This document shows, one piece after another, positions 49,691 through 53,162 of a stretch of 64,000 nt of DNA; the stretch's first letter is position 1, and each line of letters starts with the position of its first letter. The translations under genes and the position numbers were made by a program. Below the pieces are notes generated by a model, which saw only the letters and a list, made by a program, of their open reading frames with translations, searched no databases and was not told the DNA's origin. Origin of the DNA: Companilactobacillus allii (GTDB lineage: Bacteria; Bacillota; Bacilli; Lactobacillales; Lactobacillaceae); the NCBI RefSeq assembly GCF_001971585.1, contig NZ_CP019323.1, positions 1,664,053-1,728,052 on the forward strand, given 5' to 3'.

Positions 49691-49885
49691 TTAACCTTGA
49701 TGTGCTTGCAAGCTCTTACGATTTGCACGACGACGGTTTTCTTCGATACGATCATTTTCAGCATCCTCTGGTTCGATAACAGTCTTCTTAAATGCATGAA
49801 GTGCACCGTATACTGCAGTAGCTGTAGTAATTGAACCGAATAGGAATCCTTTAACAAAGCGTAAATGTTTTTGTTTCTTTGCCAT
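49691..49885 (-). CDS. DUF3042 family small membrane protein
   Basis: A 64-residue protein: basic start MAKKQKHLRFVKGFLFG, one hydrophobic segment (about 13-30, GSITTATAVYGALHAF), then an acidic and Arg-rich tail (EPEDAENDRIEENRRRANR). This matches the DUF3042 family restricted to Lactobacillales. A GGAGG site lies upstream on the minus strand. Function unknown. Confidence 0.82.
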   Translation of the reverse strand: MAKKQKHLRFVKGFLFGSITTATAVYGALHAFKKTVIEPEDAENDRIEENRRRANRKSLQAHQG

Positions 49886-52154: not shown

Positions 52155-52183
52155 TTGCTAAATAGAACATATGTTCGTATAAT
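52155..52183 (+). promoter_or_regulatory. Sigma-A promoter with a LexA (SOS) operator in its spacer
   Basis: TTGCTA (52155-52160), 17 bases, TATAAT (52178-52183). The spacer contains the perfect dyad GAACATATGTTC (52165-52176), followed by G; with its flanks it matches 13 of 14 bases of the B. subtilis LexA/DinR consensus CGAACATATGTTCG. The operator overlaps where RNA polymerase sits, the usual position for repression. Confidence 0.85.
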
Positions 52184-52200: not shown

Positions 52201-52470
52201 ATGCAAAGCGTGATTCTCAAAAACTTTATTGGTGAGTTCAATAAACGGTATGATAAAGATACATATAGGGATTTGGTTGTAGTGAATAACAGTTTGTTAG
52301 ATCAGTCTTCAATTGTAATGCGAAGTTTTGATTTGACCTTAAAGACAACCATTGAGAAACAAATATTTGGTGTTTCACCAATGAATTCCAGCTTATTAAC
52401 CGGTTTAGTTAAAGATGCTGAAAAAACTTTGCCAATTAATGATATCGGAATTCAATATCGTAGTGTATAA
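52201..52470 (+). CDS. Unknown 89-residue protein under a LexA-type operator
   Basis: I do not recognise this family. The protein has 89 residues with no Cys, no signal peptide and no membrane helix. It begins MQSVILKNFIGEFNKRY, has a probable strand-rich centre (YRDLVVVNNSLL, SIVMRSFDLTLKTTIEKQIF) and ends NDIGIQYRSV. RBS GAGGTG sits seven bases before the ATG. It is monocistronic between its own promoter and a GU-rich hairpin. Codon use resembles the neighbours. The only hint of role is the SOS operator just upstream, suggesting expression after DNA damage. Confidence 0.8.
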   Translation: MQSVILKNFIGEFNKRYDKDTYRDLVVVNNSLLDQSSIVMRSFDLTLKTTIEKQIFGVSPMNSSLLTGLVKDAEKTLPINDIGIQYRSV

Positions 52471-52592: not shown

Positions 52593-52604
52593 AGTACGAG
52601 TGAT

Positions 52605-52678
52605 GTCGCAGTGGCTCAGTTGGATAGAGCAACGGTCTTCTAAACCGTAGGTCGTGAGTTCGAATCTCACCTGCGACA
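52605..52678 (+). tRNA. tRNA-Arg (anticodon UCU)
   Basis: A complete 74-base cloverleaf: acceptor GTCGCAG/CTGCGAC, D arm GCTC...GAGC, anticodon stem ACGGT/ACCGT around loop CTTCTAA with anticodon TCT at 52639-52641, T arm GTGAG-TTCGAAT-CTCAC, discriminator A. CCA is not encoded. It reads AGA/AGG, the preferred Arg codons in AT-rich genomes. Stand-alone transcript. Confidence 0.96.
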
Positions 52679-52684
52679 TAATAA

Positions 52685-52794: not shown

Positions 52795-52826
52795 AAAAAA
52801 AAGCCGCCTGCTGAGAACAGACGACT
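52795..52826 (-). terminator. Minus-strand terminator downstream of the small gene
   Basis: On the minus strand, AGTCGTCTG and CAGGCGGCT form a 9-bp stem (three G-U pairs) followed by about ten T residues (plus-strand A run 52791-52801). Confidence 0.8.
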
Positions 52827-52837
52827 CGATGTTACAT

Positions 52838-52878
52838 AGTGTATTTACGGGACCAATCCGTAAGTACACTTTAGTATA
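52838..52878 (-). ncRNA. Hairpin with its own possible promoter; candidate small RNA or 3' UTR element
   Basis: On the minus strand AGTGTA-TTACGG and CCGTAA-TACACT form a 12-bp stem with one mismatch (plus coordinates 52838-52870). A TGG-TATACT extended -10 (52873-52878, minus) sits just upstream, so a short RNA of about 70 bases ending at the terminator near 52800 is possible. Its loop GGATTGG is complementary to CCAATCC just after the stop of the minus-strand gene at 52929. Confidence 0.35.
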
Positions 52879-52928
52879 CCATAGAAGAGATATCTGAAAC
52901 GAATTACTTTAAATATATTTGGATTGGC

Positions 52929-53057
52929 TTATCTATTACCGAACAGCATGGTCTTATTTTCGTTTTGTAACTCAGATAAGATCTCTTTTTCATGAACCGT
53001 CAATTCTTGGCGCGTGCGTGGATGTAATAACGATTTGATGAATTCAATTAACTTCAT
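52929..53057 (-). CDS. Small 42-residue protein of unknown function
   Basis: Not a family I recognise. The reading frame starts ATG at 53057 behind a perfect GGAGG with eight-base spacing and encodes 42 residues: an amphipathic start MKLIEFIKSLLHP, a basic RTRQ, then an acidic helix-like VHEKEILSELQNEN and the end MLFGNR. It has its own promoter (53135-53162), a palindrome in the 5' leader and a terminator downstream, so it is a complete transcription unit. Whether the peptide or the RNA matters cannot be told. Confidence 0.6.
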   Translation of the reverse strand: MKLIEFIKSLLHPRTRQELTVHEKEILSELQNENKTMLFGNR

Positions 53058-53100
53058 AGTCGTAACCTCCAAAATTAAGTGTTTACGAAATAATTAGATT

Positions 53101-53126
53101 TTAATATCTGTTTAAACAGATATTAA
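53101..53126. repeat. 26-bp perfect palindrome
   Basis: TTAATATCTGTTT followed directly by AAACAGATATTAA. It begins about two bases after the predicted start of the minus-strand transcript, so it may be an operator for that promoter or form a 5' hairpin. Confidence 0.85.
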
Positions 53127-53134
53127 TTAATTGA

Positions 53135-53162
53135 ATTATAACAAATGTGTTGTTATATACAA
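53135..53162 (-). promoter_or_regulatory. Promoter of the 42-residue minus-strand gene
   Basis: On the minus strand: TTGTAT (53157-53162), 16 bases, TATAAT (53135-53140), with TGT before the -10 (extended type). Confidence 0.65.

Follow-up and report, generated by a model that had tools for sequence, protein, structure and literature searches.

The window analysed here is a stretch of 64,000 nucleotides from Companilactobacillus allii, and it contains an AT-rich gap of about 750 bp between the end of a tRNA-Arg gene (52679) and the start of a carboxylesterase gene (53433). The minus strand of this gap carries a 42-codon open reading frame (ORF) with the product MKLIEFIKSLLHPRTRQELTVHEKEILSELQNENKTMLFGNR. 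The ORF, its Shine-Dalgarno (SD) sequence and extended -10, a palindromic leader and the AT-rich surroundings had been described as one transcription unit in an earlier note on this DNA, and all of them can be read on the strand (Table 1). The same note counted a terminator as part of the unit. This part did not hold up, as the closest minus-strand terminator in our scan, probably the one meant by the note (52827-52801), lies about 100 nt past the stop codon, outside 52929-53162, and belongs to a separate small-RNA gene with which the ORF transcripts may share it. A consensus promoter scan of the window did not list the -35/-10 pair of the ORF; a comparable -35/-10 region is present by eye in the closest named relative, C. 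hulinensis. No same-strand gene was seen after the ORF in the window.

Table 1. Positions within the window of the 42-codon reading frame, its signals and nearby features.
Feature	Position	Strand	Remarks
42-residue ORF	52929..53057	-	read on the strand, ATG 53057-53055, stop ends 52929; relatives in 34/36 genomes of the genus, pN/pS 0.13 vs C. hulinensis
Shine-Dalgarno GGAGG	53066..53070	-	8 nt 5' of ATG; identical GGAGG in L002, L003, L005
Perfect 26-bp palindrome TTAATATCTGTTTAAACAGATATTAA	53101..53126	-	centre GTTTAAAC; just 3' of predicted transcription start, between -10 and SD
Extended -10 TGTTATAAT	53135..53143	-	counterparts TTTGTTATACT (L002), TTTGATATACT (L003), TTTGATATAAT (L005)
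Weak -35-like TTGTAT	53157..53162	-	16-nt spacer; 3/6 by eye
Small-RNA gene	52795..52881	-	extended -10 52881-52873 (by eye); hairpin ~52870-52838, loop CGGATTGGTCCCG; terminator 52827-52801
tRNA-Arg(tct)	52604..52679	+	convergent neighbour of the ORF
Presumed LexA/SOS-box-like AGAACATATGTTCG	52164..52183	+	adjoins -10 of the 89-residue ORF
89-residue ORF	52201..52470		no Pfam or NCBIfam family above cut-off; resembling proteins in L257 and L265 (by eye)
DUF3042 small protein	49691..49885	-	Pfam E 7e-22

Relatives of the 42-residue product are found throughout the genus. When the single sequence was used as a query, 35 of 60 genomes contained a relative at E<=0.1, with one of these lying outside the genus and matching weakly (G053, E 0.059). 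A 31-row profile (A1) matched 34 of the 36 Companilactobacillus genomes at E<=0.01; there was no match in G027 and G030, the match in G034 was weak and partial (E 4.9e-5, 23 positions), and three genomes carried two gene copies. Among 251 sampled Lactobacillaceae genomes the profile matched 11, every one of them Companilactobacillus, and none from the 39 other genera of the sample. Genus assignments were read from named records, by which 12 of 13 loci were Companilactobacillus and one was an uncultured Lactobacillus metagenome-assembled genome. No relative was found in the viral contigs, plasmids and phages that were searched. C. hulinensis, which we take to be locus L002, encodes a protein 79% identical to that of the window. 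Comparison of the two codon sequences gave 23.2 synonymous differences over 25.7 sites and 11.8 nonsynonymous differences over 100.3 sites, for a pN/pS of 0.13; the ratio is left uncorrected because the synonymous sites of this pair are saturated (pS 0.91). Across 12 chosen pairs, including this one, pN/pS ranged from 0.03 to 0.29, and pooling the pairs with pS below 0.6 gave a pS of 0.481 and a pN of 0.162. The family spans 35-42 residues, and the reading frame was open in all 30 loci inspected for disruptions, some of them shorter at 35-36 residues, which left the gene unrefuted. A chance ORF, which small size alone might suggest, is already refuted by this conservation of the protein sequence: presence in 34 of 36 genomes together with a pN/pS of 0.13 makes the ORF more than chance, and we give that reading practically no weight. 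The ORF is a genuine, unnamed small-protein gene of Companilactobacillus, and its family is restricted to the genus and under purifying selection.

In keeping with the proposal that this is a real short gene of no recognized family, the window protein matched nothing in Pfam or PHROGs, had two sub-threshold matches in NCBIfam, and found nothing in the PDB below E 0.4. Single relatives matched PF23161 in Pfam, below the cut-off, and a PHROGs family weakly (E 0.34). An AlphaFold2 prediction from 14 rows placed helices at residues 2-14 and 21-39 (pLDDT 72.6, pTM 0.39), as expected from the amphipathic N-terminal helix and acidic helix proposed earlier. A helical hairpin is plausible on the basis of this model; its tertiary fold is not reliable. 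Five residues, M1, E29, L30, E33 and N34, are invariant across 31 rows, the last four forming an EL..EN core. The suggestion that the product is a small regulatory peptide is a possible one, and the model fits a peptide that is soluble and serves as a regulator or in an anti-sigma/adaptor-type role; it would bind a cytosolic protein through both helices without membrane contact. All four residues of the EL..EN core lie in the acidic helix, and none of the peptide relatives in the hydrophobicity count described below has a strongly hydrophobic segment, which also favors a soluble protein. However, the N-terminal helix is well kept too (K2 and I7 across 31 rows; K8, S9 and L10 in the 14-row alignment), and the RNA element that leads the gene in most relatives keeps envelope-directed company (see below). 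A soluble regulator is possible, but in our judgment rather unlikely.

The small-RNA gene directly downstream of the ORF has a stable predicted fold (z -5.74) and no Rfam family above the cut-off. A whole-sequence search detected this RNA in 4 of the 36 genomes of the genus, the window's own included, and a gapped pattern detected it in 2 of 301 Lactobacillaceae genomes. The three other homologues sit at another locus, beside another gene, and the copy in G027 has a compensated stem by eye. Because of this separate location the RNA is a gene in its own right, and its inclusion in the peptide unit was ruled out. Its position in the window nevertheless bears on whether the peptide could be a small membrane-acting toxin, either type I-like or phenol-soluble-modulin-like, with the RNA as a possible regulator. 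The short length and the amphipathic start MKLIEFIKSLL would suit such a toxin, and NCBIfam returned a very weak match to PSM-epsilon (E 0.28) that reached 11 bits against a curated cut-off of 33 and so does not assign the protein to the modulin family. The RNA, however, is transcribed from the same strand as the ORF, whereas a type I toxin-antitoxin pair calls for antisense overlap, and it occupies a different locus in three genomes. In addition, the peptide is present genus-wide under purifying selection, its second, acidic helix has an invariant core, and the viral, plasmid and phage searches returned no relative. We consider a toxin improbable.

The genomic surroundings were compared across 30 loci, three of which (L006, L014 and L015) are truncated where their contigs end. 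A tRNA-Arg(tct) gene lies downstream in 24 of them, on the same strand as the peptide gene in 20 (204-449 nt from start to start) and convergent with it in the window (L001), L002, L003 and L005, with a distance of 1431 nt in L002. L020 has no tRNA in reach, and L026 and L027 are near a tRNA-Gln(ctg). Where the tRNA-Arg is on the same strand, it follows a terminator-like stretch and has its own promoter-like sequence, as judged by eye. These arrangements bear on the idea, raised in the earlier note, of a leader-like element: in a leader peptide or attenuator, translation rather than the product would matter, which would fit a short ORF and the structured 5' UTR seen in relatives. This reading was rejected because the amino acids are under purifying selection and no same-strand gene follows in the window, where the tRNA-Arg is convergent; in the 20 loci with a same-strand tRNA-Arg, that gene stands behind the terminator-like stretch. 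We regard it as very improbable. Some further loci were seen by eye. Relatives of an MKLIEMIKQ...LAELQAEN type in L258, L260, L261, L263 and L266 lie 0.2-3.2 kb from a tRNA-Gln(ctg) and have a different, common leader, GAAAGGAT(A/T)TGAGATC, before the ATG. L257, L259 and L262 adjoin a glycosyltransferase-like gene, and two of these three have the GTCC element described next.

An alignment of 20 loci shows a 5' UTR with an 8-pair hairpin, followed by the element GTCCARANNCTGANGACNNNAAAAGCTG and then the SD. The upstream hairpin is paired in 95.6% of cells, with both-side changes in 3 of its 8 pairs. A model of the element (GTCC...AAAAGCTG) matched 23 of the 30 peptide loci at E<1e-7; part of the matched sites had themselves supplied rows to the model. 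The window, L002, L003, L005, L010, L026 and L027 gave no match below E 0.9; L010 has a decayed copy by eye. Over the whole window the best match was at E 0.2; elsewhere in the same genome there are two copies, of which one leads an ORF and the other none. Rfam searches of 15 peptide loci at E<=1 (the element being present in 13) and of one viral locus at E<=5 found no leader family over it.

Compensatory changes support the reading of the element as a structured RNA. Positions -1 and 17 had the highest mutual information among the pairs examined (0.369, shuffled maximum 0.163), and this closing pair was a standard pair in 65 of the 85 distinct rows of alignment A2, with both sides changed in 30 rows and U-G in 11. 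The three inner pairs are uninformative because they are invariant in A2. When the rows were split by source, the closing pair was formed in 40 of 45 viral rows, compared with 22.0 expected (0 of 2000 shuffles), and in 9 of 10 rows from other genera, compared with 4.6 expected (p 0.0025; one stray extra-family copy included). In Companilactobacillus it was formed in 18 of 32 rows, compared with 15.6 expected, which is not significant (p 0.16). The evidence for the hairpin therefore comes from viral rows and other genera; the rows from Companilactobacillus lend it no independent support. Pairing between the loop and the SD was rejected as a general rule, since each element's own pieces paired no better than swapped ones (-3.72 vs -3.92 kcal/mol); for the peptide loci, RNAalifold predicts a pairing of CUGA with UCGG at the SD, but the columns concerned hardly vary.

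The possibility that the conserved sequence marks a promoter was also considered. Sigma-70 scores shortly upstream of the element equaled those of shuffled sequences (mean 7.94 vs 7.88), with 6 scores of at least 10 where 5.25 were expected and 2 of at least 11 where 0.3 were expected, and a sigma-70 promoter there was rejected. The same applies to the element as a promoter itself: in 67 of 74 cases an ORF starts 18-29 nt downstream, and the nearest upstream ORF is co-strand in 97 of 104, so that an RNA element fits better. The co-strand share is weaker evidence than it appears because phage genes are mostly co-oriented. An alternative sigma factor could in principle still recognize the element.

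The element reaches well beyond the peptide genes. Its exact pattern occurs in 83 of 301 Lactobacillaceae genomes, representing 21 of 40 genera, and the reversed-pattern control gave 0 in each genome. An order-wide sample of 295 genomes, 48 of them counted as Lactobacillaceae, had the element in 7, and the exact pattern was found in none of the 247 genomes of other families. A looser search allowing one mismatch detected a single copy outside Lactobacillaceae, which leads no ORF. Exact and one-mismatch searches of this kind miss diverged copies. Viral contigs contained the element in 108 stretches; the instance table covers 88 instances from 80 of these, and later counts read all. Instances with similar flanks were removed at a threshold of 0.55, which kept 55 of 75, 106 of 198, 104 of 195 and 105 in the respective counts, or at 0.50, which kept 87 instances, 86 of them for the count of led genes. 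Little beyond the 28 nt and a G-rich SD is conserved. As for what follows, 74 of the 86 non-redundant instances stand in front of an ORF of 30 aa or more and 12 do not. A strongly hydrophobic segment is present in 37 of the 43 led ORFs that reach 150 aa or more, compared with 21% of 708 control ORFs, a crude control because all frames are mixed in it. The element thus appears to lead mainly membrane or secreted proteins. In Pfam, 7 of 13 led products scored above the cut-off (DUF5067, DUF4352, DUF4236, MscL, HSDR_N, zinc ribbon and TerB_N), the DUF4352 protein also matching superinfection-exclusion PHROGs, and PADLOC models matched 2 of 9 tested products (PDC-S02 and SngA). Accessory genes preceded by GTCCARANNCTGANGACNNNAAAAGCTG were observed in viral loci L115-L194 and genome loci L032-L099. 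The gene after the element looks integrase-like by eye in L134, L145, L150, L154, L161 and L183. T-arm-like hairpins (GTTCGATTC) lie between the preceding gene and the element in L094, L129, L157, L169 and L171; tRNA read-through upstream of the element in G070 was rejected, as ARAGORN found no tRNA in L094-L096. The open-licence literature, which leaves most subscription papers outside, yielded nothing on the protein or the element, and the exact motif strings were unmatched there. The element may represent a hitherto undescribed type of cis-acting RNA.

Lineages differ in what stands before the gene: the structured 5' UTR in most loci, a palindrome in the window and in three relatives. In L001, L002, L003 and L005 the core of this palindrome, TGTTTAAACA, lies at -58 to -61 relative to the ATG. 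The same core occurs further upstream in L028-L030, together with the GTCC element. Sites resembling ATATGTTTAAACATAT were found in 28 of the 36 genomes of the genus, with 3 matches for the reversed control. In the window's own genome one such site stands before a gene for a GntR-UTRA regulator, which is nearest to TreR and scores 147.9 against TIGR02404, below the cut-off of 211.95. Twelve sites were inspected; in relatives, some adjoin genes that look by eye like PTS or GH65 sugar genes, and others adjoin neither kind. The simplest reading of the palindrome is as a candidate operator. It could equally be a 5' RNA hairpin, as the RNA is also predicted to fold into one (z -3.71 for the whole leader).

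Taken together, these results lead us to favor, at about an even chance, the view that this unnamed small-protein gene encodes a helical-hairpin modulator at the membrane surface, made on demand for an envelope process and controlled in a lineage-specific manner. The amphipathic N-terminal helix would lie on the inner face of the membrane, and the acidic helix with its invariant EL..EN would bind a partner, the protein thereby acting as a small modulator of the envelope process. In most lineages the RNA element would act in cis on translation; in the window lineage a GntR-type repressor would bind the palindrome and repress the gene. The membrane location is a guess from the amphipathicity and from the company that the leader element keeps; for the envelope link this company is the evidence, and it is indirect. 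More tentatively, and with somewhat less than even confidence, we propose that GTCCARANNCTGANGACNNNAAAAGCTG defines a class of cis-acting leader RNA that has not been described before, is specific to Lactobacillaceae and controls how accessory genes directed to the envelope, many of them phage-borne, are translated. The gene for the Companilactobacillus protein would then be a fixed host member of this regulon, its product would act at the membrane, and in the window lineage a DNA operator would have taken the place of the RNA control. Present across its genus yet without a family, the small protein offers a tractable target in food bacteria. More is gained from the short conserved RNA, which in Lactobacillaceae and their phages is found before superinfection-exclusion-like, defence-candidate and other proteins, most of them membrane or secreted; should this RNA respond to a signal or to a host factor, it would tell how lysogens switch on accessory genes.

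SpoVM is a very short membrane-surface protein with an amphipathic helix and no signal peptide that is easily missed by annotation. The window protein resembles it in being very short, without a signal peptide, easily overlooked in annotation and equipped with an amphipathic helix. It differs in having a second, acidic helix, and SpoVM enters here by description rather than through a family or structure match. With phenol-soluble modulins the protein has in common a short amphipathic N-terminal helix and the sub-threshold match; its invariant acidic second helix and a chromosomal locus kept across the genus set it apart. The accessory (moron) genes of Lactobacillaceae phages, for example those for superinfection-exclusion-like DUF4352 proteins, have the GTCC...AAAAGCTG leader in common with most peptide loci; unlike them, the peptide is present across the genus and was not found in the viral, phage and plasmid collections. 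For the leader element only, a comparison can be made with preQ1-I and similar riboswitches, which are small translational riboswitches of the H-type-pseudoknot kind. The element likewise has a short hairpin, an A-rich tail and an SD a few nucleotides downstream, but it has no Rfam match, its loop-SD pairing was unsupported by the swap test, and the genes it leads are non-metabolic. Finally, as regards TreR/GntR-family operators, the core TGTTTAAACA is common to the window palindrome and the sites before the TreR-like gene of the same genome, and the palindrome differs in its arms (CTG...CAG vs ATG...CAT).
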